From: Clostridiales bacterium
GTDB taxonomy: Bacteria > Bacillota > Clostridia > Christensenellales > Aristaeellaceae
NCBI GenBank assembly: GCA_016930575.1
Contig: JAFGGL010000040.1
Coordinates: 1-64,000, forward strand
DNA length: 64,000 bases
Direction of reading: 5' to 3'
Part shown: positions 13,863-40,606 of the stretch, one piece after another
Layout of the letters: each line of letters opens with the position of its first letter
Numbering within the stretch: the first letter of the stretch is position 1
The notes under the pieces: model-generated
What the model was told of the DNA's origin: nothing
Database searches by the model: none
What the model saw: only the letters and a program-made list of their open reading frames with translations
Position numbers and translations under genes: made by a program

Positions 13863-13868
13863 TTAGAA

Positions 13869-13894
13869 ACTCGGGATCAAATCCCGAGTTTTTT
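13869..13894 (+). terminator. Intrinsic terminator after galT, overlapping the convergent gene's end
   Basis: A 9-bp stem (13869-13877 with 13881-13889), a 3-base loop and a T tract to 13894. The right side lies inside the last codons of the convergent helical-repeat gene (stop at 13877-13879), so the two transcription units end on each other. Confidence 0.85.
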
Positions 13895-14512
13895 CATTGC
13901 TTTTATCACCCTTGCCTGCTGGGACGCGGACAGTTCTTTCAATCGGCTTCGGATGCTGTCCGTTATCGGTTTGTGGTTGTCCTCGCGCAGGCAAACCGAT
14001 ACGCGCTCGAAGTGCTGGGGAATCTCCTTGGCCCTGCAGGCCCTAAAATGCCGGACCAAAACGGGCATCACCCGTTTTTCATACGCGGCGTCCGCCCCGC
14101 ACAGCGCGGCCAGGACGCTCACCGCGCTGTCCCGCGTGATGACGCTGCCGGTTTCATACGCCGCAAGCACCGTGTCCAGCTTCGCGTATACGGGCTTTGG
14201 ATTGAGCCCGGCGATACACCCAAGCGCGATCATCGCGCCCCAGACGAGGCGGTTGTTTTTCGAGCGCAGCAGATTGAGGAAGACGTCCGCGTACCCGGCG
14301 ATCAGCGCCGGATCGCGGTATCCGGTCTCATACAGAACCTTGATGCAGTCACTGGCGGTCGCCTTGTCCGACCGCAGGCCTCCGGCGATCTCCGCTATGC
14401 CGTCCCTGTCCCCGGCGTCCGACAAGCGCTGCGCCAAATCGATATTCGGCCAATCTCCGCTGCTGCCCAACGCGCTTGCGATTTGATTCAACGCGTTCAT
14501 CTTCGGCCTCAT
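13877..14512 (-). CDS. Small helical-repeat (HEAT-like) protein, unknown function
   Basis: A 211-residue, apparently soluble protein without signal peptide or cysteine motif. It is almost all amphipathic helices in a HEAT/ARM-like rhythm: 'ASDCIKVLYETGYRDPALIA', then 'NRLVWGAMIALGCIAG', then 'RDSAVSVLAALCGAD'. Such repeats usually mediate protein contacts. Its ATG at 14512 overlaps the stop of the EAL gene in ATGA, so translation is coupled; an internal ATG at 14500 with GAGG upstream is an alternative start. It ends the operon of binding protein, hybrid kinase and EAL protein. A role as partner of that pathway is inferred from position only. Confidence 0.7.
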   Translation of the reverse strand: MRPKMNALNQIASALGSSGDWPNIDLAQRLSDAGDRDGIAEIAGGLRSDKATASDCIKVLYETGYRDPALIAGYADVFLNLLRSKNNRLVWGAMIALGCIAGLNPKPVYAKLDTVLAAYETGSVITRDSAVSVLAALCGADAAYEKRVMPVLVRHFRACRAKEIPQHFERVSVCLREDNHKPITDSIRSRLKELSASQQARVIKAMKKLGI

Positions 14513-16587
14513 CCGTACTCGGCGGCAATGCCGATCGCCGCGTCCTCATCCAACGGTTTACTAAACAGGTATCCCTGCATCATATCGCAGTCGAAATCCA
14601 GCAGATACTGCTTCTGCTCGTTGTACTCCACGCCTTCGGCGATGACGGAATGTCCCATCCGGTGCGCCATGGCGATGATGTCGCGGGTGATGGTCTTCTC
14701 CCGCTGCGCGGTGAGCAGCCCGTCGATGAAGGTTTTATCGATCTTCAGGATGTTGATGTTCATAACACGTTCACGCGACAGCGTGGAGTAGCCGGTGCCG
14801 AAATCGTCGATGGAGGTCTTCACGCCGACCTTCATGAGTTTTTCCAGTTTCTTGTTGATCACGCTGAAACTGCCGGCGAATACAGATTCGGTCACTTCCA
14901 GCCCGAAGTTCTCGGGCCGCAGGCAGTACCGCTTGACGATATCCAGGAATTCAGTGATGAACTCGCTGCGCAGAAGCTGGATAGCGGACGCGTTGACGAA
15001 GATACGGATGTTCCTGTGCCCCGAATCCTGCAGGCGCTTCTGGAAGGCGCAAGCCATCTCGATAATCCGCTTGCCAAGCGGGATGATCAGTTGCGTCTCC
15101 TCGGCGATGGGAATGAACTCCAGCGGCGACACCCTGCCCAGCGTTTTGCTTTCAAACCGCGCCAGCGCCTCGAATTCTTCCACTTTATTGTTTTTCAGGT
15201 TCAATATCGGCTGGAACTGCAGGTAGAGGCGTTCATCCGGCGAACCGTCAACCGCCCGCATCAGCGCTTCCTTCACGTCGGCTTCCCGTTTCATCGCGGC
15301 TTCCATGTCGCTGTTGAAGAAGCGGTAGCCGAAATTCTGGTCCTTGTCGCTGCGCTCCGCCGCCGTGGACGCATTCTTGATGATATTTTCGATCGCGCCG
15401 TCCCCGTAGTCAAACTCCACGATGCCGATGCCGCAGCCGACGGTACGCAGGATCTGGATGGAATCCACCAGGTCCAGTATTTCCTGGCTGAATGCTTTCA
15501 GCTCGTCCTCGTCTTCATATTTCGTTATATAGAAAGCAAAGCGCTCAAAGGAGATTTGGAACAGCTGCCTGTGCTCGTCTTCCAATTCGGAGAGGCTTGC
15601 CGCAAGTTCCACCATGATCTCTTCGCAGAAGTTGTACCCGTAGGACAGGCTGATCGCGTTGATCTTGCGCAGGCTCAACAGCACAATCGCGCGGGCGCCT
15701 TCGGCTTTCCCCTCCATGTCTTCGGAAAGGATATTGGCCAGATACCGGCGGTTGTGCAGTTTGGTCAGGCTGTCGATCTCCGAGATATGTTTGAGTTGCA
15801 TCTCCTTTTCCTTGCGGTCGCTGATATCCTGCACAAGGCAGATGTGGTTGAGCTCCGTATCCTTGAGTATGTTCAGCTGCGCGACGATGACGTCCACCCA
15901 AACAATATTGCCGTCCGGCCGCACAAAGCGCTTTTCCATCCTGTAGCTTTCGATTTCCCCGGCCTTGAAGCGGCGGTAGAGCGCTTCCTCCTTGGGAAGG
16001 TCGTCCGGGTGCGTGATCTTCGCCCAGCCGAGTTCGATGAGCTCTTCCCGGGTCCGCCCGGTGATCCGCTGATATTGTTCGTTGAAGATCGTTTTCTCTC
16101 CGCCGCCGCTGCCGGGATTTTCCCCGTGCGAAAGCGCGATGCCGATAGGCGCCTGGTTAAGGAGCGTATCCAGCGTCAGGTTGCGCTCATACAACGTCTG
16201 TTCGTACAGTTTTTGAATTTGCAGGAGTTCCAGGTGGATACCGATGCGCAGCCGCAGCGATTCCAGGTTGATCGGCTTGCGGATGAAGTCCACCGCGCCC
16301 GCCTGCAGCCCGCGGATCTCGTTATCGAGCTCGTCGTAATTGGTAAGGATGATCGCGCGCATCTGTTTGTTCTGGTTGATGTCCTTGAGTTCGTTAAGCA
16401 CTTCAAAGCCGTTCATCACGGGCATGTTCAGGTCCAGGATGATCAGGTCGATATCCGGCTGCTCGTGGATCAGCCGCATCGCTTCGCGGCCGTTTTGCGC
16501 CGTGATCACGTCAAAGTCGCTCAGCATGTTTTTGATGATCAGGCGATCGGTCGCCGAATCATCCACGACCAGGAGTTTTCCGGTCAT
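14509..16587 (-). CDS. REC-PAS-(degenerate GGDEF)-EAL protein, predicted c-di-GMP phosphodiesterase
   Basis: Response regulator with a cyclic-di-GMP output, 692 residues from the ATG at 16587. That start has GGGAGG 7 bases upstream; an earlier in-frame ATG at 16608 does not. Order: receiver domain (about 1-120, phospho-acceptor Asp52 in 'ILDLNMP'), short linker, PAS (about 135-260), GGDEF-like domain (265-430) and EAL domain (435-690). The GGDEF signature is replaced by 'SFERF', so cyclase activity should be lost. The EAL domain keeps 'FEALARF', 'NASAIQ', 'DDFGTGYS', 'KIDKTFI' and 'IAEGVE', so it should hydrolyse c-di-GMP. It lies 42 bases after the hybrid kinase, its likely phosphodonor, and overlaps the HEAT-like gene in ATGA. 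Confidence 0.9.
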   Translation of the reverse strand: MTGKLLVVDDSATDRLIIKNMLSDFDVITAQNGREAMRLIHEQPDIDLIILDLNMPVMNGFEVLNELKDINQNKQMRAIILTNYDELDNEIRGLQAGAVDFIRKPINLESLRLRIGIHLELLQIQKLYEQTLYERNLTLDTLLNQAPIGIALSHGENPGSGGGEKTIFNEQYQRITGRTREELIELGWAKITHPDDLPKEEALYRRFKAGEIESYRMEKRFVRPDGNIVWVDVIVAQLNILKDTELNHICLVQDISDRKEKEMQLKHISEIDSLTKLHNRRYLANILSEDMEGKAEGARAIVLLSLRKINAISLSYGYNFCEEIMVELAASLSELEDEHRQLFQISFERFAFYITKYEDEDELKAFSQEILDLVDSIQILRTVGCGIGIVEFDYGDGAIENIIKNASTAAERSDKDQNFGYRFFNSDMEAAMKREADVKEALMRAVDGSPDERLYLQFQPILNLKNNKVEEFEALARFESKTLGRVSPLEFIPIAEETQLIIPLGKRIIEMACAFQKRLQDSGHRNIRIFVNASAIQLLRSEFITEFLDIVKRYCLRPENFGLEVTESVFAGSFSVINKKLEKLMKVGVKTSIDDFGTGYSTLSRERVMNINILKIDKTFIDGLLTAQREKTITRDIIAMAHRMGHSVIAEGVEYNEQKQYLLDFDCDMMQGYLFSKPLDEDAAIGIAAEYG

Positions 16588-16629
16588 ACTTGTGCCTCCC
16601 TTTGCCATCGGCTGCGGTCATCGCGCAGC

Positions 16630-19545
16630 TTATTCATGCTCCTGCATGGTTTGGATCTCGCCGAGCAGCGCTTCCAGCGTTCCCAGGAATTCCCGGCTCA
16701 GCATTTCGATCTCCTGGTTGTTTTCCTCTTTCAATGCCGTTTGCAGTCGCACGGCCAGCTCGTACAGCGGCTTTGCGCCGATGCTGCCGGAGCTTGACTT
16801 AAGCTTGTGCACGATGCCGACGGCCTCGCCGTAGTGCATGTCTTTGATAGCCTGCGACAGTTTCTCCGCCGTATCCAGGTTCTCCGAACGGTATTGCGCA
16901 AGCACCTGCAGGTACAATTCGCGGTTCATCCCTATGTTGCGGACACCGGTCTGGGTATCCAGCACGGCCGGGGCAGCTTCCGGCGTTGTGTCGTTTGCTT
17001 TCAAGATATCCCGCACCGCCTTGATAAACTGCTCGGGATCAAAGGGCTTCGTCAGGTAATGATGGATGCCGTTTTGCTCGCACTGGTCCTTGATGCCCGT
17101 GATGACGTCCGCCGTCAGCGCCACGATGGGCACGTCCCCGGAGAGCCTGCGGATCGCCGCAGAAGCTTCGTAGCCGTTCATCATCGGCATGTGCAGGTCC
17201 ATCAGGATCAAATCGATTATATCCCGGTTCTGGGTGTAAAGCTCCACCGCGATTTTTCCGTTTTCGGCCAGCAGCACCGTAAGCCCCGCCTGTTCCAGAA
17301 GCGTTTTAGCGATCAGCTGGTTGGTCTTGTTATCCTCGGCGACCAGCACGCTGTACTGCTTCCGCCCGGCTGCTGTCTCGCTGTGCGTCTCCTCCGACAT
17401 CTGCGACGCGGCGATCGCCTTGAGGTGGAAGATGTCCAATATCCCGTTGAGCAGGACCGACGGGATGATCGGCTTGCCGATGCCAACGTCCACATGGTTC
17501 TCGTCCAGCTTGTCAAACAGGTCTTCCCGCATCATCGGCATCAGCATGAGGATCTTCGGTTTGACGGCGATCCTGTCGTTTTCCAGGATGTTCTGCACAA
17601 AGGGGAAGCCGCCTTCATTGGGCGTTTCGTAGTCCACGATCAGCAGATCGAAGGGCTTGGCATGTTTGCCGTTGGCCGCCTGCAGCATCGAAAGCGCGCT
17701 GATCTGCGACGTCGTGAGCTCGCTTTCCATCCCAAAGGACTCCAGGTAGGTCTGGATCAGGTTCATGCTCGAAACGGATTTCTCAAACACAAGCGTACGG
17801 ATATCCTTAAGTTGCTCGCCGGAAACCCTGCTCTTATACTCCGTTTCCTTATCCTTGTCCACGGGCAGCGGCAGACGGATCACAAAGGACGAACCTTCGC
17901 CGGGAGCGCTGAATACCTGCACGTCCCCGCCCATCAGGTCCACGAGATTCTTGACGATCGACAGCCCGAGCCCCGTGCCGCCGAAACGCCTGTTGATGCT
18001 GGTATCGGCCTGCGTAAAGGGCGTAAACAGCTTTTTCACCTGCTCTTCGGTCATCCCGATTCCCGTGTCCTTCACCGTAAACGAGAGGTGACAGATATCG
18101 TCCACGCGCTCCGTCAGCCGGATATCCAGCGTGACCTCGCCCTCGCTGGTGAATTTCGCGGCGTTGTTCATCACGTTGATCAGAATCTGCTCCAGCCGTT
18201 TGGCGTCGCCGAGGTACCAGTTGGGCGCCGACGGGTCCTTGATCAGCCGCAGCCCGATTTTCTGCTCTTCGATCTTGAAGGAAACGATGCTGATGACGTC
18301 CTTCACCACCTGGTCCATGCTGAATGGCGCGACTTCCAGTTCCACCTTGCCCGCTTCGATCTTGGAGAAGTCCAGGATATCGTTGATGATTCCAAGCATG
18401 ATGTTGGAGGACTGGGTGATTCTGTCCGCATACATCTTCTGCGTGACGGTGACCTTGGTCTTCTTCAGGAGGTAGGCCATGCCGATGATCCCGTTGAGCG
18501 GCGTGCGGATCTCATGGGACATCCTGGCTAAAAACCTGGACTTGACCTGGTTGGCCTCGTCGGCCTCCATCTTCGCCTCTTCCATCGCCTTTTCGCTCTT
18601 CTTGCGGATAACGATTTCCTTGCGCAGGCGGACGATCCAGAACGCCGACACCAACAGCACCAGCGCGGCGACGCCCGCGGCGATCAGTATGATGCGGATC
18701 AGCCACGTATAGTCCGCGCTTTCCTTGATGCTGATCCACTTGTCGCTGATGGCGATCTTGCTTTCTTCGTCGATGGCTTTGAGCGTTTTGTTGATGATGC
18801 CGATGAGCTCCGGCCAGTCGCTGCGGACGGCGAAATACAGATGCTGCGGCTCTTCGGTATCGATGGGGATGACCTTCAGGTTTGTGATCCCGATGGACTT
18901 CGCCAGGTAATTGGTCGTCGCCAGGTTGCCGACAAATACCGTCTCCCTGCCGTCGGCTACCGCCCGCAGCGCGTCCTCCACATTGTTATAGAGGATCAGC
19001 GTGATCTCGTTGAAATCGGCCAGGTAGCTGTGGTGCGAGCTGTTTTGCTGCACGGCGACGGTCCTGCCGTTGAGGTCGTCGAATGATTTGACGTCGTTGT
19101 TGTCCTCGCCTAAAAACATCACGCGCTGAAAGGAGATATACGGGTCGGAGAAGAGGAAATATTTCTCGCGCTGCGCCGTTTTGGATACGCAGGGCAGCAT
19201 GTCCAGCTTCCGTTCCACCGCGTACTCGTATGCCTGCGACCATGTCAGGTTTTCCGCGGCCGTAAACTGCAATCCGGTCTTTTGGGAGATCAAATCCAGG
19301 TAATCCGCCGCGATGCCCTTGTACTCGCCGTCCGTATCAAAAAACTCGTACGGGATGAATTCGGGATCGACGCCCAGCGTGATCACCGGATGGTCGCCGA
19401 TGAATTTGAACTCAAAATACGTCAGATTGAGGGCAAACAGGTCAATCCCGCTTGTATCTTCCGCGATTGCGCCGCCGATTCCAAGCACGACGGCCAGCAT
19501 GAGCAGCGCGGCCAGCCCTCTTCGCACAAGTGCGGTTCTTCTCAA
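16630..19545 (-). CDS. Hybrid sensor histidine kinase with extracellular SBP_bac_3 domain, two REC domains and Hpt
   Basis: Membrane sensor with a complete phosphorelay in 971 residues. A signal peptide (1-28) is followed by a periplasmic amino-acid-type solute-binding domain (about 53-270: '[14 protein letters not shown]', 'RKLDMLPCV', '[11 protein letters not shown]') and one membrane helix (281-303). Then come HisKA with His344 in '[10 protein letters not shown]' and HATPase (Asn461, 'DTGIGM' at 493, 'GGTGLGLS' at 522). The first receiver is divergent (Asp638); the second is typical (Asp783, Lys833). An Hpt domain carries His913 in '[10 protein letters not shown]'. It starts with TTG at 19545, with AGGAGGG 7 bases upstream. 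It lies between an orphan binding lipoprotein and the EAL response regulator, so a ligand-to-c-di-GMP route is likely; the ligand is unknown. Confidence 0.93.
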
Positions 19546-19588
19546 TCAGCGTCCCTCCTCTTCTTGCAGGATGGCGCGTTTCATCGGT

Positions 19589-20920
19589 TTACTGTACCTG
19601 TAAAATTTGATTTCCTTTATGCTCTACTTCGCTGAGGAACGCTTCGATCGTCGTCTCCCCGGTCATCACCCGGTGCAGCCCGGGCTCGTATATCTCGTCC
19701 TTCACCGTCTGCCAGGCGGGCACGGGCACGTCGATGCTCGGCGTTTCAAAGCCTGCGATGAAGGTTTGATACTCCGGATGCATGACAAAGATCTGGCTGT
19801 CCGCCATATCGATGCGGATGGGCGTCCTGAACGGGTAGTAGGCATCGTGCTCCGGGCTGTACTCGCCCTTCATGATCTCCTCCTGGGCTTTCACGGAGAT
19901 CATGAAGCGGATAAACTCCCTCGCCGCTTCGCTCCCCTGTTCGTCCATGCCGGCTGGAATCGCCAGCATCAGCGGCCCGACCTCCGAACACAGGCCGACG
20001 GTTGCAAGCGGCAGGATGCCCACCTCGAACGGATTTCCATTTTTCTGGATATCGGTCAGGCCCCAGATTCCGAGTATCTCAAACGCCACTTCCTGATTCC
20101 GGAACGCCGTCTGCACCTCGGCCGCCGTATCGTCAAGCCAGGTCGGCTGCGCGTGCGCCCCCAGCACGTCCCTGTAGATGCGCAAAGCTTCTGCGGACTG
20201 CTCGTTATTGATAACGACGCTTTTCCCGTCGTCTGAGACAAGGCCGGAGCCGAAACCGTAGATGAACTGGTTCACCATCCAGGAGATATCGTTTGATTGC
20301 GCGCCCACCAGGCCGAGGCCCTTGGCTTTCGTTTTCCGGTCGATGGTCTCGATCGCGCTGATGAAGCTATCCATATCCGTGATGCCGTCCGCGTCCACGC
20401 CTGCGCTTTCAAGGATACCCTTGTTGTATAAAAGGCACATGGAATGCCCGAGCCACGGGATGCCGTAGACCGCTTCGTCCACGGAGGTCAGCGCCCATAT
20501 GGCGTCGTAAAACAGCTCCTTCACATCGGCGAACGCTTCCGTAAGATCCATCAGGTACCCCTGGCTCCCGAAATAGCGGATAAAGCGGTACGGGAGCACG
20601 TATACGGTATTTTCGTTTGCGTTAAGCAGCGCTCCCACCGCCTCGCGGTCTTCATCGCCGTCGATCACCGTGACCTGCGTGTCCGACTGCGCGTTGAATT
20701 CATCCACGATCGCCTGTATCGCCTCGCCGCGGCCGGAATAACTTTTCCAGGTGATTCGAAAAGACAGCGGATGCCGCTCCGCGGGCGTTTCGGTCTGCGC
20801 AGCGGTTTGGGTGCCGCCGGCTGTGCTTGTTGCTTCCGGCGTTTGGCCGCCGTTGCAGGAAACCAGCAGTCCGCACAGCAAAACAAGAATCAGTACGGCT
20901 ATCAATCTGCTGCGGCGCAT
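19589..20920 (-). CDS. Extracellular solute-binding lipoprotein (family 1), orphan, first gene of a signalling operon
   Basis: Sugar-type binding protein of 443 residues from the ATG at 20920, which has GGAGG 10 bases upstream; the longer GTG start at 20944 would put residues before the lipoprotein signal. The N-terminus is basic, then hydrophobic, then the lipobox 'LLVSC'. A TPEATST-rich tether follows, then a two-lobe fold ('GIPWLGHSMCLLYNKGIL', 'PFEVGILPLATVG'). No permease or ATPase genes lie nearby. The next genes are a hybrid kinase with its own binding domain and an EAL regulator. It may therefore present ligand to the sensor rather than feed a transporter; alternatively it could serve permeases encoded elsewhere. 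Transcribed from the promoter at 21068-21096. Confidence 0.88.
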   Translation of the reverse strand: MRRSRLIAVLILVLLCGLLVSCNGGQTPEATSTAGGTQTAAQTETPAERHPLSFRITWKSYSGRGEAIQAIVDEFNAQSDTQVTVIDGDEDREAVGALLNANENTVYVLPYRFIRYFGSQGYLMDLTEAFADVKELFYDAIWALTSVDEAVYGIPWLGHSMCLLYNKGILESAGVDADGITDMDSFISAIETIDRKTKAKGLGLVGAQSNDISWMVNQFIYGFGSGLVSDDGKSVVINNEQSAEALRIYRDVLGAHAQPTWLDDTAAEVQTAFRNQEVAFEILGIWGLTDIQKNGNPFEVGILPLATVGLCSEVGPLMLAIPAGMDEQGSEAAREFIRFMISVKAQEEIMKGEYSPEHDAYYPFRTPIRIDMADSQIFVMHPEYQTFIAGFETPSIDVPVPAWQTVKDEIYEPGLHRVMTGETTIEAFLSEVEHKGNQILQVQ

Positions 20921-21067
20921 GGGTATGACACCTCCGGTGGACACAAATAAGCCTCAGACACAAATGTTCATGAAGATCAGTTATTGCGGTCCAGGTTGTG
21001 TTCGCTGCCGTTTACGGTCAGGCGTGTTATGGAAAACCAGATCGGCGATTCGTTTTCTGTCTGTTCT

Positions 21068-21096
21068 ATCGTACTTTGATTTCCTGATATTGTCAA
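21068..21096 (-). promoter_or_regulatory. Promoter of the binding protein-kinase-EAL operon
   Basis: On the minus strand, TTGACA (21096-21091), a 17-base spacer and TACGAT (21073-21068). This leaves a leader of roughly 140 bases before the lipoprotein start at 20920, in which no clear riboswitch fold was seen. Confidence 0.65.
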
Positions 21097-30882: not shown

Positions 30883-31791
30883 TCAATAACTCGTTTTATT
30901 CCTACCGCTTTCCTTTGATTTATAAAGTGCTTTATCAGCCTCTTCAACTAAACCAGCTGATGATACATTCTTGGCTGGGAACTTCGTTGCTACTCCTGCG
31001 CTTATAGTAACAATTTCCTCAACATCTGAAAATGCATGAGGTATTTTTAGTGACATTACGTTTTGTCTCATTTTTTCTGCTATGATAAACGCATTGTCCG
31101 CATCGGTGTTTGGTAAAATACAAACGAATTCCTCGCCTCCGTATCTTGCTAGAAAGTCAGTTTTACGAACGAGAGTTTTCGAGAGTACCTGCGCTATCTT
31201 CACGAGGCATTCATCTCCTCCTTGGTGCCCGTAATGATCGTTGTATTGTTTGAAGAAATCTATATCCATCATTACCATGGAAACCGGCATTGAAACACGC
31301 ACTGCCAGATTCCATGTCGAATCAAGATATTCATCAAACTTTCGCCGATTTGATATGCCTGTCAATCCATCCAAATATGAAAAGTTTTCTAAACGATCCC
31401 TGTATCGTTTCAATTCCAAATGCATACTTACTCTGGCTTTCACGATAACAGAGTTATATGGCTTTTTAATATAATCAACGGCACCCATATTGAATCCGCG
31501 GATTTCCTCTTCCTCATTTATTTTCCCTGTCACGAATATTACCGGGATGCTTTTTGTTTGCGAGGCTTCTTTAAGCCTCATACACACTTCGTATCCGTCA
31601 ATACCGGGCATTATTATATCTAGCAGAATAAGATCTGGTGGATTATCCGAAAAGCAGATATCCAGCGCTTTCTCACCACTTGTTGCGGCTCTGATTTTAT
31701 AGTCTGACCTCAATAATTCAGCAAGAACACTAACGTTTTCTTTTGCATCATCAACAACTAGAATTGTCGGCCGCTCAGATGAATCAAACAT
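30883..31791 (-). CDS. Response regulator with diguanylate cyclase output (REC-GGDEF, PleD/WspR-like)
   Basis: Makes cyclic-di-GMP when phosphorylated; 302 residues. The receiver (about 1-120) has phospho-acceptor Asp in 'LILLDIIMPGID' and the switch lysine in 'YIKKPYN'. The GGDEF domain (about 135-300) opens with 'DGLTGISNRRKFDEYL' and has the active motif 'RYGGEEF'. An RxxD inhibition site (RKTD) lies five residues before it, so product feedback is expected. Cytoplasmic. The ATG at 31791 lies inside the end of the hybrid kinase gene (stop at 31784), with GGTGG as the ribosome site, so the two are translationally coupled and almost certainly partners. Together they form a kinase-to-c-di-GMP circuit opposite in sign to the EAL module at 14509. 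Confidence 0.92.
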   Translation of the reverse strand: MFDSSERPTILVVDDAKENVSVLAELLRSDYKIRAATSGEKALDICFSDNPPDLILLDIIMPGIDGYEVCMRLKEASQTKSIPVIFVTGKINEEEEIRGFNMGAVDYIKKPYNSVIVKARVSMHLELKRYRDRLENFSYLDGLTGISNRRKFDEYLDSTWNLAVRVSMPVSMVMMDIDFFKQYNDHYGHQGGDECLVKIAQVLSKTLVRKTDFLARYGGEEFVCILPNTDADNAFIIAEKMRQNVMSLKIPHAFSDVEEIVTISAGVATKFPAKNVSSAGLVEEADKALYKSKESGRNKTSY

Positions 31792-34700
31792 TCCTTCCAC
31801 CGCCCAAGTCAATTTTCATTTTTTTAGCTAATTCATTTAGAGGCTTTTTCGCCATCTCGAAATCAAAATCACCTATGTGTTTTGCAAGTTCTTTCAATTC
31901 CTTGTAATGGTTCGATTCACCGATTAGTTTTTGAAGCTCATCCAGGGGCTTTTCTGCATCAACATTATCTTCCCAAACGAAAAGAGCCAACTCCCGCAAT
32001 ATGGGTTCAACTTCCGATAGATCAATTGGCCTGTCTACTTTCTGTTTATCCACTTTGATATCTATATCAAGTTCGCTTAACAGCTTGTTTAGCGAGTCAA
32101 AGCTGTTAACCAGATTTTCGAGCAACTCATCACATTTCTCGATATCGTTATTTGATAGTAATAGCTCAAGTTCAGCCGCTATATTCTGTATCTCTTGGGC
32201 TGATACATTCCCCGCAACGCCTTTTAGTGCATGTGCTAGTCTCGATGCCTCCTCGAATTTTCTTTTATCCACCGACTTTTTTATATTGCTCGGTATTGAT
32301 GAATATTCCCGAGAAAAATTCACTAAAAGCTTCTTATAAAGTTTCTTATTTCCGTTCAATCTATTTAGTCCAGCATTAAGGTCAAATCCAGGTATATTTG
32401 CAGGCAGCTGTATTATTCCCTCACCCACAATGCCATTATCGCTCTGTTTCCCCAACTGTATCATGCCCTCATCAACCGCTTTCCCAACCCACTTCTTAAT
32501 TGTAGAAAACAGGTTCTTCGGATCAATTGGCTTACTCACATAATCGTTCATACCAGCAGCTAAACATTCCGCTTTAACACCCTGCATCGCATGGGCTGTC
32601 ATGGCAATAATAGGCAATTCTTCAAACTGTATTTGTTTTCTTATTTCCTTTGTAGCTTCATATCCTCCCATTACCGGCATTTGTAAATCCATCAGTACTA
32701 CATCATAATTCTTCTCTTTCACGGCCGCTATAGCTTCTTTTCCGTTATTTGCTATATCAACCATGGCACCTGCGCTGCTAAGTATCTCCTTTGCTACTTC
32801 TTGATTTATCTCGTTATCCTCGACGAGAAGAACATTGATACCATCAACTCGATCTATTGCATTAAGCTCTTTTTCCCTTTCGGATCTTTGAACCGAAGCA
32901 TCCGATTTATCTATACCGAACATATTCATTATGCTATCAAATAAAAGTGATTGATTGATTGGTTTCATAAGAAAGGTATTTATCCCAATTTTCTCCGCTC
33001 TTTTAGCAATCTCTTCTCTTCCATACGCAGATACTAAAATTATCCTTGGTTTATGTTCAATGTTTTCATTATCATTAATCATTCTTGCCACTCTGATCCC
33101 ATCAAATTCAGGCATTCTCCAGTCCATGATTACTAAATCATATGGTTTACCTTTAGCTTCTTTTTGTAGTTCCAAAATTGCAGCTTGTCCGGATGCTACA
33201 GCCATGGCACTAATCCTAAATGATTCTAATTGCTCCTTCAAAACCTCTCTTGACATCTCATTATCATCTACAATCAAAACTTTTATATTTCGAAGTTTAT
33301 CACTATCGAATTGCTTTTTATTTTTCTCTTTGGCTTGCATTATGAAATCAATGACAAATGAAAATGTGCTTCCGACTCCGAATTCGCTCTCAACGAGTAT
33401 TCTTCCTTTCATCATTTCCACAAGCCTTTTAGAGATTGTAAGCCCAAGGCCTGTGCCGCCAAATCTTCTTGTTACAGAAGTATCTGCTTGCGAAAAAGCG
33501 GTGAACAATTTAGCTTTTTGTGCTTCTGTTAATCCGATTCCGGTATCATTCACGCTAAATTTAATTTGGCATGATACATCATCCTTCTTTACTAATTCAG
33601 TTTTAACTAAAACATGTCCTTTTTCTGTGAATTTAACCGCATTATTCACCAGATTTACTAGTATTTGCCCAATTCTTAAGGGATCTCCTATAAGCGCATA
33701 TGGAACATTACTTGAAATACTATTGATAAGCTCAATGTTTTTCTCTGCAGCTTTATCAGAAAGCATGCTCATTGTATCATTAACTACATCATCAAGACGA
33801 AATTCAACCTTCTCCAATTCCAACTTGCCTGCTTCTATTTTCGAGAAATCGAGAATATCATTGATAATACCATGTAAAGACTTTGCCGCAGAATCAATTT
33901 TAGCGACGTAGTCTGTCTGTTTTTGCGATAATTCTGTCTTTTTTATAAGTCCGGAAAACCCAATTACTGCATTCATTGGTGTACGAATTTCATGGCTCAT
34001 ATTAGCCAAAAACTCACTCTTTGCTTTTGTGGCTTCTTCTGCTACTTCTTTTGCTTTTAGCAATTCCGCCTCGCTTTTCTTCTGCTCGGTGACGTCTCTG
34101 ATGATTCCAACCGAATACATACCACTACTGATTTCGACCGTAGATAGCGATAGCTGTACATGGATTTTCTTTTTATCTTTACGACTAGCTTCGATACAAA
34201 GTATTTCTCCAGCTGTTCTTCCACCCTCTTTCTGTTGAAGGCCTAGATATGCTGCATGGTATGTTTTTCTATAGTTTGAAGGTATAATTAGCTTTATCAA
34301 GTTTTGACCAATAGCTTCGGTACTTGTATAGCCGAAAATCCTTTCGGCGGCAGGATTCCAATATGTGATTTCGCTGTTCTGGTCCATCATAAGAATGGCA
34401 TCATATGCTGAATCAGAAATAGAACGCATTCGAATCTCACTATCATGCAACGCATCCTCTGCCTGCTTGCGTTCGGTGATATCACGGATGGCAGCCATCC
34501 TTATTTCTGTTCCATGTGTTTGAATTGTCTTTCCTTGAATTTCTGTATAGAATGATTCGCCGCTTTTTTTAATGAATCTAATTTCATATGGGCTCGTATA
34601 GTCCATCAAAATGTGTTTTCGTGCAATGGGTCTATCATCACAATAAATAAACTCAAAAAGGTCATGTTCAAGCATTTCTTCATGTTCGTAGCCAAGTAAT

Positions 34701-35230
34701 TTTAGAAAAGATGAATTGAGATCCTTTATAATTCCATTATCATGTACAACAATTCCCTCTATTGTGATTTCCGATAGTGTCTGGTACCGCTCTTCTCTTT
34801 CCTTTATTTGAAATTCAGCATTCTTCTGGTTGGTAATATCTGTTGAGATCCCCCATGTGCCTACGATATTTTTATCTTTATCATATAATGGGTATCTGGA
34901 TACTTTGTACCATAAGGTTTCTCCACTCGCGAATGTTTCATGTTCTTCCGCGTTAAGTATAGGGATTCCCGTTTTCATAATTTGCTGCTCGCATTGGTAG
35001 GCTTCGGTTGCATGCTTCTTATTAAAATAATCAAAATCTGATTTCCCAATAACATTCTTTATGTCAGATTCATTTAAGCATCTTTTTAGATGAGAATCAC
35101 TACTATAGATGAAACGGGATTCTTTATCTTTGAAATATATCAAATCCGCAGTACTCTTCATCATGATCTCAAAAGCATCTTTATATTCCAATGAAATATA
35201 ATCTGCCATGTACCTAGACTTTTTGTCCAT
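31784..35230 (-). CDS. Cytoplasmic PAS-PAS-PAS hybrid histidine kinase with two REC domains and Hpt
   Basis: Multistep phosphorelay sensor, 1148 residues from the ATG at 35230 (GGAG 7 bases upstream; an earlier frame start at 35299 lacks this). Three PAS domains (about 20-135, 145-260, 270-390) form the input; no signal peptide or membrane helix is visible, so it senses something inside the cell. HisKA carries '[12 protein letters not shown]' and HATPase has 'DTGIGL' and 'GGTGLGLT'. Receiver 1 has 'LVIMDWRMPEFDG', receiver 2 'VVLMDLQMPVMGG', and the Hpt has 'LAHALKGVAGN'. About 90 further helical residues end the protein, with an inexact repeat ('KPLDELQKL', 'KPLNELAKK'). It overlaps the REC-GGDEF gene by 8 bases. 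Notably AT-rich compared with the flanking loci. Confidence 0.92.
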   Translation of the reverse strand: MDKKSRYMADYISLEYKDAFEIMMKSTADLIYFKDKESRFIYSSDSHLKRCLNESDIKNVIGKSDFDYFNKKHATEAYQCEQQIMKTGIPILNAEEHETFASGETLWYKVSRYPLYDKDKNIVGTWGISTDITNQKNAEFQIKEREERYQTLSEITIEGIVVHDNGIIKDLNSSFLKLLGYEHEEMLEHDLFEFIYCDDRPIARKHILMDYTSPYEIRFIKKSGESFYTEIQGKTIQTHGTEIRMAAIRDITERKQAEDALHDSEIRMRSISDSAYDAILMMDQNSEITYWNPAAERIFGYTSTEAIGQNLIKLIIPSNYRKTYHAAYLGLQQKEGGRTAGEILCIEASRKDKKKIHVQLSLSTVEISSGMYSVGIIRDVTEQKKSEAELLKAKEVAEEATKAKSEFLANMSHEIRTPMNAVIGFSGLIKKTELSQKQTDYVAKIDSAAKSLHGIINDILDFSKIEAGKLELEKVEFRLDDVVNDTMSMLSDKAAEKNIELINSISSNVPYALIGDPLRIGQILVNLVNNAVKFTEKGHVLVKTELVKKDDVSCQIKFSVNDTGIGLTEAQKAKLFTAFSQADTSVTRRFGGTGLGLTISKRLVEMMKGRILVESEFGVGSTFSFVIDFIMQAKEKNKKQFDSDKLRNIKVLIVDDNEMSREVLKEQLESFRISAMAVASGQAAILELQKEAKGKPYDLVIMDWRMPEFDGIRVARMINDNENIEHKPRIILVSAYGREEIAKRAEKIGINTFLMKPINQSLLFDSIMNMFGIDKSDASVQRSEREKELNAIDRVDGINVLLVEDNEINQEVAKEILSSAGAMVDIANNGKEAIAAVKEKNYDVVLMDLQMPVMGGYEATKEIRKQIQFEELPIIAMTAHAMQGVKAECLAAGMNDYVSKPIDPKNLFSTIKKWVGKAVDEGMIQLGKQSDNGIVGEGIIQLPANIPGFDLNAGLNRLNGNKKLYKKLLVNFSREYSSIPSNIKKSVDKRKFEEASRLAHALKGVAGNVSAQEIQNIAAELELLLSNNDIEKCDELLENLVNSFDSLNKLLSELDIDIKVDKQKVDRPIDLSEVEPILRELALFVWEDNVDAEKPLDELQKLIGESNHYKELKELAKHIGDFDFEMAKKPLNELAKKMKIDLGGGRNV

Positions 35231-35308
35231 ATAACTTCTCCACAATTTAATATTTATAATGCTCGCGATTCTTAAATCCTTTATTCTAAGAGGATTCAAC
35301 CTTCTTTT

Positions 35309-38149: not shown

Positions 38150-38869
38150 CTAGTACGCGCTCAGGAATTTGATCGTTTTTTCACGTTTTGGGCTTTGCAG
38201 CATCTGTTTCGTCGGTCCTTCCTCATAAACACCGTTTTCATCAAAAAACAGGATCCTGTCGGTATAATCGTGGGCAAATTGAAGTTCATGCGTCACGATA
38301 ATCAGCAGTTTGTTTTGCAATGCAATATCTGCGATCACAGACAGTACTTCCTCCTTCATGGAAGGATCCAGTGCTGATGTAGGTTCATCAAACAAAAGTA
38401 CATCCGGGTTGAGCGCTAGCGCTCGTGCTATGCCTATACGCTGCTGTTGTCCGCCGGATAATTCCGAGGGATAGGCAAACCGCTTGTCCGGCAATCCGAC
38501 TTTTCCCAGCAATATTTCGGAAAAAGCAAACGCCTCAGCTTTGGATGTATGACGGGTTTTTATTAGCGCAAGTGCGATATTGTCAATCACGTTGAGATGG
38601 GAGAACAGATTAAATTGCTGAAATACCATACCTGTATGTGAAATAGCCCGCATATGCTCACGGCGGGAGCCGAAGAGCCGGTCTCCTGCGATGCGCACCT
38701 CTCCGGAGTCTGGTCTTTCAAGTCCATTCAGGCAGCGAAGGAACACGCTTTTCCCGACGCCTGATTGTCCAATGATAGCGATCCGCTCATTTTTGGCAAA
38801 TCGGGCGCTTATGTTCTCAAACACTGTCTTTCCGCCAAACGCTTTTGAAACATTCCGAATGGTGATCAT
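38150..38869 (-). CDS. Polar amino-acid ABC transporter ATPase (GlnQ type)
   Basis: ATP-hydrolysing subunit of an amino-acid importer, 239 residues, the standard length. Walker A is 'GQSGVGKSV' (the last residue of the usual GKST is Val, so slightly atypical), Q-loop 'GMVFQQFNLFSH', signature 'LSGGQQQRIGIARAL', Walker B 'LLFDEPTSALD' and switch histidine in 'IIVTHELQFA'. Its ATG overlaps the permease stop by 4 bases (38866-38869), so it is translationally coupled. It belongs with the permease and binding protein upstream (40606-38866). The amino acid transported cannot be named. Confidence 0.94.
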   Translation of the reverse strand: MITIRNVSKAFGGKTVFENISARFAKNERIAIIGQSGVGKSVFLRCLNGLERPDSGEVRIAGDRLFGSRREHMRAISHTGMVFQQFNLFSHLNVIDNIALALIKTRHTSKAEAFAFSEILLGKVGLPDKRFAYPSELSGGQQQRIGIARALALNPDVLLFDEPTSALDPSMKEEVLSVIADIALQNKLLIIVTHELQFAHDYTDRILFFDENGVYEEGPTKQMLQSPKREKTIKFLSAY

Positions 38870-39555
38870 TTCGTGTTCCTCCGATAATACCGATGGCTTG
38901 CGCCAAACTTTCGCTTCTCAATCCAGGCGAACAGGCCATATATCAAGTAGGATAAACCCAGATAGAACATGATACCGATGAACAACATGAAAAACGGCTC
39001 CAAGGTTCTCGTGCTCATATAATTGATCGCTCGCGTAAGGTCTGTGATGGAGATATAACCCACAACACAGGTCCACTGCAAAAGGTTGATTACAGCGCTT
39101 TTGTATACGGGCATCGCTACAATGCTTGCCTGCGGAAGCAAGACATAGCTGAAAATAGCAAAACGGCTTAATCCCAGAGCACGCGCCGAATCAAGCTGTG
39201 GTTTTGAAACCGATAGAATGGCACTGCGCATGATCTCAGCTACATTGCCTGAGACATTGAGCGAAAACGCGATGATTGCAATAAAAACGGCATCTATGCG
39301 GACGGATTGAAAGACTACATAGTAAAACAGCATCAACAGCATCAGCACAGGCGTGCCTCTGATAAACGCAATGAACGCCTGAGCGGGAACAGCAAGCACA
39401 CGTTTGTGCGAGATACGAAGCATACAGACTGGTACCGCTAAAAGCGTTCCCAAAACGAGGGCAGCGGCCGTAATCTGAATCGTTACCAGCAAACCCTGTA
39501 ATATACTATACCAGGCGTTGTTCTGGATTAGATTCTCTTGGATAAACGCAATCAT
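38866..39555 (-). CDS. Amino-acid ABC transporter permease (HisMQ/GlnP type)
   Basis: Membrane subunit of a polar amino-acid importer, 229 residues. The opening 'ILQGLLVTIQITAAALVLG', the loop 'FIRGTPVLMLLMLFYYVVF' and the coupling loop 'ALGLSRFAIFSYVLLPQA' are typical of the family; about five membrane helices are visible. There is only one permease gene, so it probably acts as a homodimer. It overlaps the ATPase gene by 4 bases and is separated from the binding-protein gene by 73 bases containing a stem-loop. Confidence 0.94.
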   Translation of the reverse strand: MIAFIQENLIQNNAWYSILQGLLVTIQITAAALVLGTLLAVPVCMLRISHKRVLAVPAQAFIAFIRGTPVLMLLMLFYYVVFQSVRIDAVFIAIIAFSLNVSGNVAEIMRSAILSVSKPQLDSARALGLSRFAIFSYVLLPQASIVAMPVYKSAVINLLQWTCVVGYISITDLTRAINYMSTRTLEPFFMLFIGIMFYLGLSYLIYGLFAWIEKRKFGASHRYYRRNTK

Positions 39556-39582
39556 TGCCGGTCTCCTTCGCTATAATATGAA

Positions 39583-39616
39583 GCAGCCGACCTGCGTTTA
39601 TCCGCAAGCCGGCTGC
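39583..39616 (-). promoter_or_regulatory. Stem-loop between binding-protein and permease genes
   Basis: GCAGCCG (39583-39589) pairs with CGGCTGC (39610-39616), and an inner TGCG/CGCA pair extends the stem. No strong T tract follows on the minus strand. Such structures after binding-protein genes commonly protect the 5' mRNA or attenuate the downstream permease, giving excess binding protein. Confidence 0.5.
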
Positions 39617-39628
39617 AATAACATACTG

Positions 39629-40606
39629 TCACTTCAGTTCAATCGCTGTAATACTCATAATCAAATACGGATCGGTTGAAATGATCGCGTCGCTTCTGAC
39701 ACCGAGCAATGCAAGCATTTCCGGCGAAAGGGATTGTTCCTGCCAGAACACAACATCGATTTTGCCGGAAGCCAGCGCAGCGATGATTGCGTTTTTCGAC
39801 AGTTGTACAAACTCAATCTTGTACCCAAGATATACGCCGATTTGCGACATTAGGTTGACATTGAAACCAACAGGCATGCCGCTCTCATCCACATAATCAA
39901 TCGGCGGGATATCGCCCGTTACGCCGACATACAGCGTTTTGTCTGCCTCATATGGGGGGATTTCAGCCAAAGTGCCTTTGATCATTGCCATTGTCAGCGC
40001 ATCCAAAATTCCGTTTTCTTTCAGGTAGGCTATCGCTTCGTTGAGTTCTTGGCAGAGTTCCGGATTGGTCGCCAAAACGACCATAGAGAAGGAGATATCG
40101 TTATAGTCCCTCAGCCGCGGGTCCATGTATAGATAGAGGGTAGGGTCCATCTGCGCCATAAAGGTCGCGTTGGCGTCCATACTTAACAGCGTATCCACTT
40201 TGCCGGTTTTCAACGCCATCAATGCTTCGTTGACGGTAGGATAGCAGATGAAGTCTTGAATAGGTATTTCTAGCAATTCGGTGAAGAAGGTATAGATCTC
40301 CTCCGCTGACGCTTCCATTTCCATAGTAGCAAGCACTTTCCCGTCAAATGTTCTCTCTTCAGGTACCGCTTCTTCCTGGGCCGGCATCATCGTCTCCGCT
40401 TGCTGCAAAAGCAGTAACAACTCATCAATGGATGTAACCCCATATGCCTGCATGGCGGATTCAATGTCTGAAAATCCCATTGCCTGCAGTGTGGCCAAAA
40501 CTTCTTCAGGAATCGTAACCTGTTCTGCAAACGCAAAATTGGTCAAGCACAGTACAATCGACAGTGTGAATACTAAAAGCCTTCTCACCCATCTAAATTT
40601 TCGCAT
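39629..40606 (-). CDS. Amino-acid ABC transporter binding protein (SBP_bac_3) with permuted lobe order
   Basis: Exported 325-residue binding protein with a signal peptide (1-27, 'FAFAEQ') and no lipobox cysteine. A short helical stretch (30-85, Leu/Gln-rich) follows. The usual lobe order appears swapped. Residues about 90-215 look like the second half of SBP_bac_3 ('NEALMALKTGKVDTLLSMD', 'LNEAIAYLKENGILDAL'). Residues about 222-325 look like the normal beginning ('LYVGVTGDIPPIDYVDESG', 'FNVNLMSQIG', 'ALASGKIDVVF'). The ATG has AAGGAG 8 bases upstream. It heads the amino-acid ABC operon. A minus-strand TATAAT (40663-40658) is the likely -10. Confidence 0.85.
   Translation of the reverse strand: MRKFRWVRRLLVFTLSIVLCLTNFAFAEQVTIPEEVLATLQAMGFSDIESAMQAYGVTSIDELLLLLQQAETMMPAQEEAVPEERTFDGKVLATMEMEASAEEIYTFFTELLEIPIQDFICYPTVNEALMALKTGKVDTLLSMDANATFMAQMDPTLYLYMDPRLRDYNDISFSMVVLATNPELCQELNEAIAYLKENGILDALTMAMIKGTLAEIPPYEADKTLYVGVTGDIPPIDYVDESGMPVGFNVNLMSQIGVYLGYKIEFVQLSKNAIIAALASGKIDVVFWQEQSLSPEMLALLGVRSDAIISTDPYLIMSITAIELK

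Follow-up and report, generated by a model that had tools for sequence, protein, structure and literature searches.

A sugar-type binding lipoprotein encoded with a hybrid kinase and a predicted c-di-GMP phosphodiesterase: a recurrent three-gene set and candidate receptor in a Clostridiales bacterium

What is a sugar-type binding lipoprotein for, when the genes that follow it encode a hybrid histidine kinase and a cyclic-di-GMP (c-di-GMP) regulator? The external signals that set c-di-GMP in Gram-positive anaerobes are poorly known, and any locus that couples a solute-binding protein to the turnover of this messenger deserves a close look. Such a locus lies in the window, by which we mean the whole 64,000-nucleotide stretch of Clostridiales DNA analysed here. 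The initial annotation described four genes, all of them on the minus strand, with domains and spacings that, but for the qualifications below, the sequence and Pfam bear out:

19589..20920, minus strand: SBP_bac_1 lipoprotein, module gene 1 (Pfam, lipobox Cys22, AlphaFold2 model, structural match)
16630..19545, minus strand: hybrid histidine kinase, module gene 2 (Pfam, conserved phosphorelay residues)
18733..19383, minus strand: SBP_bac_3 external sensor domain of the kinase, of the lipoprotein-associated type (PF00497, 5.7e-24; sensor tree)
14509..16587, minus strand: REC-PAS-GGDEF*-EAL response regulator, module gene 3 (Pfam, located residues)
13877..14512, minus strand: HEAT-like helical protein, outside the conserved module (absent from most genomes, in unrelated contexts elsewhere)
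21068..21096, minus strand: sigma-70-type promoter-like site, TTGACA-17-TACGAT, upstream of the lipoprotein gene (consensus match only)
13865..13893, no strand assigned: terminator-like hairpin of 13 pairs between the converging galT-like and HEAT-like genes (T run scored on the plus strand)

The lipoprotein starts at an ATG behind CGGAGGTG (a GTG frame begins at 20944), the kinase at a TTG behind GAGGAGGG, and the EAL protein at an ATG behind AAGGGAGG, upstream of which lies another ATG at 16608. The spacings in the window are indeed 43 and 42 bases, followed by an ATGA overlap of the EAL and HEAT-like genes. That a single promoter drives all four is less secure: one 10-of-12 match (21096-21068) is aptly placed, but the region holds 5 such matches where 3.3 are expected, no excess over chance. 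The HEAT-like stop codon sits within the terminator-like hairpin. In the leaders of the window and of four other loci (L022, L023, L025, L026), no c-di-GMP riboswitch or other Rfam RNA reached the gathering threshold.

The lipoprotein matches SBP_bac_1 (1.4e-29), its lipobox Cys22 is invariant in 21 of 21 aligned lipoproteins, and its AlphaFold2 model (pLDDT 89.4) finds its best structural match in T. maritima MalE3 (Z 42.0, 374 residues, rmsd 2.5), so the predicted fold is that of maltose/cellodextrin-binding proteins. Such a fold with a lipobox is one mark of ABC transporter binding proteins. The second mark, cognate permeases linked to the gene, is absent; permeases stand in line only at a distant locus, L044. 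GH127, melibiase-type, galT-like and alpha-amylase genes lie near the cluster in the window, and L023 carries GH8 and GH67 genes nearby. Other loci have varied flanks (GGDEF, S-layer, sigma-54 regulator, P-type ATPase, arabinose isomerase); a ligand assignment from neighbouring genes was therefore dropped, and we claim none on that basis.

Do these genes belong together? We sought relatives of the lipoprotein in a collection of 84,980 species by exact peptide patterns, a search that favours close relatives. At twenty of the 22 loci (L024-L043), the immediate neighbours on the same strand are a hybrid kinase of this family and a REC-phosphodiesterase. As in known three-component systems, a binding-protein gene adjoins a sensor kinase and a regulator across genomes, and no ABC transporter operon was detected around it by permease profiles. 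The conserved synteny thus exists, although it spans three genes and not the four proposed. The recurrence of this set in distantly related bacteria points to a receptor unit. Named species, Sporomusa and Fusibacter, are among its carriers. Within its own class the lipoprotein is rare, although widely scattered, since at E 1e-60 only the genome of origin, among 391 sampled, encodes it; no relatives were found in viral contigs.

The phosphodiesterase is HD-GYP in 19 of the 20 loci and EAL in one (L024), with which the window agrees. The initial annotation had not foreseen HD-GYP as the usual partner. That two unrelated phosphodiesterases replace each other favours c-di-GMP breakdown as the output. 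The two intergenic gaps, measured in 18 HD-GYP loci, run from -4 to 81 and from -86 to 20 bases, and all 18 aligned partners share invariant HD, second-His and GYP motifs. The EAL protein (Response_reg, PAS, GGDEF and EAL in Pfam) has a receiver aspartate, D52, and is a predicted c-di-GMP phosphodiesterase, with E473, N532, E564, D594/D595, K615, E651 and Q671 in place at what we take to be the catalytic positions; SFERF, at residue 346, stands where an active diguanylate cyclase would have GG(D/E)EF. Together, the SBP_bac_3 hybrid kinase with Hpt and the adjacent REC-EAL protein, catalytic residues intact, make up a Roc-like pair.

The fourth gene does not belong. The label "HEAT-like" holds only in part: the model is all-helical at low confidence (pLDDT 57.7), and the HEAT_EZ match (E 0.024, 15.6 bits) falls below the cut-off of 27. 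The gene was proposed to encode an output adaptor of the EAL protein, and the ATGA overlap and a base composition alike by codon position favour that idea. However, it occurs in 1 of 120 genomes of its own family, being absent from all 119 others, and in 6 of 391 class genomes, its own included; around the four fuller copies among the five others, no EAL, HD-GYP, family kinase or lipoprotein was found in the surrounding stretch examined. An adaptor role is thus very improbable. We reject the protein as a module member; its gene looks like a local passenger, a bystander.

Could the lipoprotein simply be an ordinary binding protein for transport, supplying a permease encoded at another locus, and be linked to the kinase through co-regulation only? 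It has the fold of sugar-transport binding proteins, its own genome holds 54 BPD_transp_1 matches, and a relative of 37% identity, in Epulopiscium (L044), sits with two permeases. Against this, the lipoprotein keeps company with kinase and phosphodiesterase at 20 of 22 loci, and a search with profiles built from sequences gathered in this analysis detected no permease adjacent to and in line with it in the 20 module loci, as the initial annotation had held for the window. Permeases turned up only in the outgroup L044, elsewhere in the window and beside L023/L030 (one genome, where they are divergent and, by our reading, have their own SBP-like gene next to them); pairing of permeases with a relative of the lipoprotein, which if consistent would have told against a receptor, is confined to the one distant locus L044. 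The type of the kinase sensor, moreover, follows the presence of the lipoprotein (see below). We consider the transport reading unlikely.

The kinase has SBP_bac_3, HisKA, HATPase_c, Response_reg and Hpt domains, and H344, D783, K833 and H913 are present in 37 of 37 full-length kinases of the family. The phosphorelay had been drawn through two receivers and Hpt; these domains are present, but in all 37 the first receiver is missing the second of the usual two acidic residues, so that only one kinase receiver, the second, looks intact. Approached from the kinase side, 21 of 25 genomes have the kinase without the lipoprotein, neither adjacent nor, at E 1e-20, elsewhere in the genome. This absence from most of the kinase family was not anticipated. 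It implies that the kinase does not need the lipoprotein, which is an added partner, and, as most of its relatives lack one, the kinase can probably also sense alone. Among the loci, L054 and L060 reach contig ends, leaving the partner out of view; L071, which ends ahead of a readable EAL, is classed with the EAL type on the strength of its REC-PAS-GGDEF part; L056, L066, L067 and L071 contain split MAG genes; the L027 kinase is cut by a contig end; and the set leaves aside G772, a fragment, as well as G624 and G457, whose sensor matches are weaker (3e-41 to 4e-51).

Might the two proteins then sense separately, with the lipoprotein a scavenger, buffer or competitor for a ligand that the kinase binds itself? 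The predominance of kinases without lipoprotein would suit this, as would the retention, in 37 of 37 kinases, of T123 and R126, which presumably line the SBP_bac_3 pocket. But the sensor sites that best discriminate lipoprotein presence (Q140/K, K216/R, C119/A) follow the lipoprotein, though ligand-pocket changes could account for these too, and N207, present in all 37, is aligned with an Asp in 7ejg and in the first BvgS domain, which makes an ordinary amino-acid ligand for the external domain doubtful. (7ejg, a domain of an EAL protein and presumably RmcA, ranks second among the sequence matches of the sensor.) Separate sensing strikes us as slightly less probable even than transport.

The sensor and the kinase core have different trees (L024 and L030, duplicates of L022 and L023, were left out, as were L044 and L045). 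In the sensor tree (43 rows), a branch with 100/97 support divides 23 rows, namely 22 with an adjacent lipoprotein plus L051, from 20 rows of which none has one; the window sensor groups with the lipoprotein-linked sensors (99/95). L051 (G106) has a sensor of the lipoprotein type, yet no lipoprotein in a 95% complete genome. In the core tree (41 rows), the EAL-partnered cores, 19 in all, form one clade (99/97), with the 22 HD-GYP-partnered cores outside. Forcing the EAL-partnered sensors into one clade is rejected by the AU test (p 0.0001, at a cost of 119 log units), as is a single clade of the 22 lipoprotein-linked cores (p 0.004); the AU group "LH+LE+L051" was picked after tree inspection, the other two having been fixed beforehand by gene neighbourhood. 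In other words, the external domain type tracks lipoprotein presence and the kinase core tracks phosphodiesterase type. The window kinase appears to be of mixed ancestry, a lipoprotein-type sensor on an EAL-type core, which the initial annotation did not foresee.

One could instead do without a chimera, and suppose that EAL-type kinases descend from lipoprotein-linked ones and that their sensors diverged fast once the lipoprotein was lost. This would oppose only the swap, leaving intact both the link of sensor type to lipoprotein and the receptor reading. Sensor identities do differ little: stretches of the window sensor favour the lipoprotein-linked set by only -0.02 to +0.08, so that the sensor swap rests on the trees. 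The window, L022 and L051 are the first branches within the EAL core clade, and the lipoprotein-less sensors lie behind two long inner branches (0.16, 0.12). However, the forced grouping of EAL-partnered sensors is costly, as given above, and HD-GYP kinases without lipoprotein (L061, L063) fall on the lipoprotein-less side of the sensor tree. We hold descent without a swap to be a serious alternative, with the odds somewhat against it. Lipoprotein distances (22 sets) correlate with those of the sensor at r 0.76 and of the core at r 0.61, and for HD-GYP modules alone almost equally (0.77 and 0.74), a weak test because all rows share ancestry.

We arrive, then, at a lipoprotein-dependent receptor that would drive a phosphorelay to a c-di-GMP phosphodiesterase, a reading to which we give a probability of roughly 64%. 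The association proposed at the outset, of lipoprotein with kinase and phosphodiesterase, has held up in 20 of 22 loci and in the sensor types. The reading is based on the linkage of the genes, their domains, the tree patterns and the conserved residues of phosphorelay, EAL and HD-GYP, and from these we infer docking, ligand, phosphotransfer and direction. The membrane-anchored lipoprotein would bind an extracellular solute, probably an oligosaccharide, and dock on the SBP_bac_3 domain of the kinase, altering autophosphorylation at H344; phosphate would pass from H344 to D783, to H913 of Hpt and to D52 of the EAL regulator, with an effect on c-di-GMP hydrolysis. The unit would be modular, external domain going with lipoprotein and kinase core with phosphodiesterase, and in the window's own genus a lipoprotein-type sensor would have been joined to an EAL-type core. 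TorT-TorS, LuxP-LuxQ and XylFII-LytS, the outputs of which are transcriptional, have, to our knowledge, external domains that are not Venus-flytrap (SBP) folds. That the lipoprotein docks on such a fold, the SBP_bac_3 domain, and that the interface moved between kinase lineages as a unit, we offer tentatively, as somewhat short of an even bet.

The papers searched do not describe the lipoprotein-kinase-phosphodiesterase module, and we regard it as a variant of known binding-protein sensor and c-di-GMP systems (CuaDSR, TorT-TorS; RocS1-RocR; NspS-MbaA). As the relevant part of PMC6321045 describes them, TorT-TorS, LuxP-LuxQ and XylFII-LytS resemble the proposed module in that the binding protein docks on the external domain of the kinase. 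In CuaDSR of Ruminiclostridium cellulolyticum, an SBP lipoprotein of about 410 residues is likewise encoded beside a sensor kinase and a regulator, CuaD is reported to bind CuaS, and three- and two-component forms are both reported to perceive cellobiose; however, in that account, no domain is predicted in the extracytosolic part of CuaS, and the regulator, CuaR, is a YesN/AraC transcription factor (PMC10384115, in the part concerned). The module, by comparison, has a hybrid kinase with its own SBP_bac_3 domain and a c-di-GMP phosphodiesterase output. RocS1-RocR of Pseudomonas shares the SBP_bac_3 unorthodox kinase with Hpt and the REC-EAL phosphodiesterase regulator, but RocS1 combines a PAS with two SBP_bac_3 domains, other regulators are transcription factors, and the passages on this pair in PMC12051241 mention no binding-protein partner. 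NspS-MbaA of Vibrio also uses a dedicated SBP for signalling, not transport, to set cellular c-di-GMP; as the corresponding section of PMC8967002 has it, NspS binds polyamines and acts directly on the GGDEF-EAL membrane receptor MbaA without a phosphorelay. RmcA of Pseudomonas aeruginosa ties an SBP_bac_3 domain to a phosphodiesterase, but within one protein that senses L-arginine, without kinase or separate binding protein in the portion of PMC8846402 that treats it.

The module offers a defined, portable input, made up of lipoprotein and sensor, and EAL and HD-GYP outputs that are interchangeable. It makes testable whether one binding-protein fold can dock on another, and where in a kinase the input is chosen and where the output. 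If the tentative docking and transfer are true, one binding-protein fold would read another, a lipoprotein-reading sensor of the HD-GYP-kinase kind would have been joined naturally to an EAL-type core, and the family would be a natural domain-swap series in which the input and the output of c-di-GMP phosphorelays come apart.

The four minus-strand genes between 21096 and 13877 agree in order and domains with the initial annotation, which had taken them as a single unit under one promoter, with the lipoprotein presenting ligand to the kinase and the HEAT-like protein acting as output adaptor.

Genes of the window operon
19589-20920, minus strand: lipoprotein, SBP_bac_1 domain, lipobox cysteine
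16630-19545, minus strand: hybrid kinase, external SBP_bac_3, HisKA, HATPase_c, two receiver regions, Hpt
14509-16587, minus strand: response regulator, REC-PAS-GGDEF-EAL
13877-14512, minus strand: HEAT-like gene, ATGA overlap with the response regulator gene

Good ribosome-binding sequences precede the first three genes. For the proposed single promoter there is a 10-of-12 match upstream of the lipoprotein gene, but such matches are not clearly commoner here than in shuffles. The lipobox cysteine is invariant in an alignment of 21/21 relatives, and kinase residues H344, D783, K833 and H913 are conserved in all 37 full-length relatives, every one of which is missing the second acidic residue of the first receiver. 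The response regulator carries SFERF in place of the GGDEF motif, and its EAL domain retains the catalytic positions.

How much of this is a conserved unit? Three genes are: lipoprotein, kinase and phosphodiesterase. The lipoprotein is present in three of the six genomes of the window's genus, the second of which (G058) has lipoprotein, kinase and REC-PAS-PAS-GGDEF-EAL gene in the window's order without the HEAT-like gene, and the third (G014) lipoprotein, REC-HD-GYP and kinase; flanking genes differ among the three modules. An alignment of these three lipoproteins, searched against 84,980 species with one genome each, gave 22 loci, under record names that include Sporomusa, Pelosinus, Fusibacter, Lachnoclostridium, Syntrophomonadaceae and various Clostridia. 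A kinase of the window's family and a receiver-phosphodiesterase gene adjoin the lipoprotein in 20 of the 22 (L024 and L030 repeat the G058 and G014 loci), and in 19 of these 20 the phosphodiesterase is REC-HD-GYP, its gene lying after that of the lipoprotein and before that of the kinase; in 18 HD-GYP loci the intergenic gaps are -4 to 81 bases at one junction and -86 to 20 at the other. The expected synteny thus holds for three genes but not for the fourth. No other genome among 120 of the family has the HEAT-like gene; among 391 class genomes five further ones do, and the four fuller copies, 41-49% identical, have unrelated neighbors, so the four-gene unit is not borne out and the HEAT-like gene is most likely a passenger of the window operon.

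The two exceptions among the 22 loci are L044:2737-5846, where an Epulopiscium relative (37% identity) stands in line with two MalFG-like permeases, which may be a sign of transport ancestry, and L045:8917-9498, a truncated copy (194 residues) without a kinase, whose MAG shares its name series with that of L024. Profiles built from the sequences gathered here, which are not exhaustive, found no further permease next to the modules except a divergent transporter in the G014 locus (L023/L030). A module in a record titled Desulfobacteraceae bacterium (L029, LKPX01000123.1) is sister to L023, a locus of the window's genus, in the trees of both sensor and core; mis-binning of the contig is likelier than transfer. 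The REC-HD-GYP gene of Sporomusa ovata is split into two frames in the assembly (L033:10259-11196), and that of S. silvacetica (L035) is a single frame. Many family genomes have frames of ~970-1230 residues (e.g., G094:C10:11406-11840) that match the lipoprotein only at positions ~105-265 and appear to make up a family of long SBP-like proteins.

The external domain of the kinase, used alone as query (E 1e-30 for the family, 1e-40 for phylum and class), gave matches in 5/120 family, 11/398 phylum and 14/382 class genomes, the window's own included in each. With two weaker matches (G624, G457) and one fragment (G772) set aside, the kinase genomes number 25. Only four (G000, the window's own, with G014, G058 and G710) have the lipoprotein; in the other 21 none was seen nearby and none is found genome-wide at E 1e-20. 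Seventeen of the 21 have a neighbor of REC-PAS-GGDEF-EAL type (one, L071, on a contig that stops before the EAL; another, L057, without a PAS match), two have REC-HD-GYP (L061, L063) and two reach contig ends (L054, L060). The wider unit is therefore a kinase-phosphodiesterase pair, to which the lipoprotein is an added partner.

The kinase appears to record both associations. In a tree of 43 sensors (external domains), a branch with 100/97 support parts 23 rows, 22 with an adjacent lipoprotein, from 20 rows with none; the exception, L051, has a lipoprotein-type sensor in a genome without the lipoprotein and groups with the window and L022 among such sensors (99/95). In a tree of 41 kinase cores, one clade (99/97) takes in all 19 kinases with an EAL partner and none of the 22 with an HD-GYP partner. 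AU tests rejected EAL-partnered sensors as a single clade (p 0.0001) and lipoprotein-linked cores as a single clade (p 0.004, or 0.007 with L051 added, an addition chosen after the trees were seen). The simplest reading has sensor type following the lipoprotein and core following the phosphodiesterase, which would make the window kinase a lipoprotein-type sensor joined to an EAL-type core. It is possible instead that lipoprotein-less sensors diverged fast, with no sharp swap, and sliding-window identities, which differ only slightly over the sensor, speak for this. Q140/K, K216/R and C119/A are among the sites that best separate the sensor types, and these sites may serve in docking or in ligand binding.

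The lipoprotein model (pLDDT 89.4) has sugar-binding proteins as its best structural matches (by Foldseek as well), among them Thermotoga maritima MalE3 (Z 42.0) and Clostridium thermocellum CbpB (Z 40.7), at identity near 20%. These matches and seven invariant or nearly invariant tryptophans (58, 142, 156, 214, 261, 286 and 403) suggest an oligosaccharide, and we claim no particular ligand. The external domain of the kinase is nearest by sequence to BvgS, 7ejg and EvgS domains; a standard amino-acid ligand for it is doubtful, since N207, present in 37/37, replaces the Asp of 7ejg and the first BvgS domain. Elsewhere in the window (38150-40606), ABC genes that read as polar amino-acid type (ATPase, permease) have as neighbor an SBP-like protein matching only half of the SBP_bac_3 profile.

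What would the relay be for? Probably c-di-GMP hydrolysis, for which the best evidence is that EAL and HD-GYP, two unrelated c-di-GMP phosphodiesterase folds, interchange in the same role with their catalytic motifs conserved. c-di-GMP is expected in the window's genome because GGDEF is matched there 12 times, counting the degenerate domain of the response regulator. A second hybrid kinase frame of the window (31784-35299) adjoins a gene with a strong GGDEF domain (30895-31377). GGDEF, HD-GYP or EAL genes directly adjoin the module in L025, L029, L037, L038, L033 and L035, which suggests local c-di-GMP circuits.

Part of this design is held in common with CuaDSR (PMC10384115), RocS1-RocR (PMC12051241), NspS-MbaA (PMC8967002) and RmcA (PMC8846402), and each of TorT-TorS, LuxPQ and XylFII-LytS (PMC6321045) has part of it. 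Titles and abstract openings, in a search that subscription papers mostly fell outside, gave no literature on a module of lipoprotein, hybrid kinase and phosphodiesterase, and we place it among the binding-protein-dependent sensor systems. Gene linkage, motifs and tree patterns are observed; ligand, docking, phosphotransfer and the sign of the final change we infer. Most likely, the lipoprotein would capture its ligand and dock on the external domain of the kinase, phosphate would pass from H344 to D783, H913 and D52, and c-di-GMP hydrolysis would be altered as the end result.
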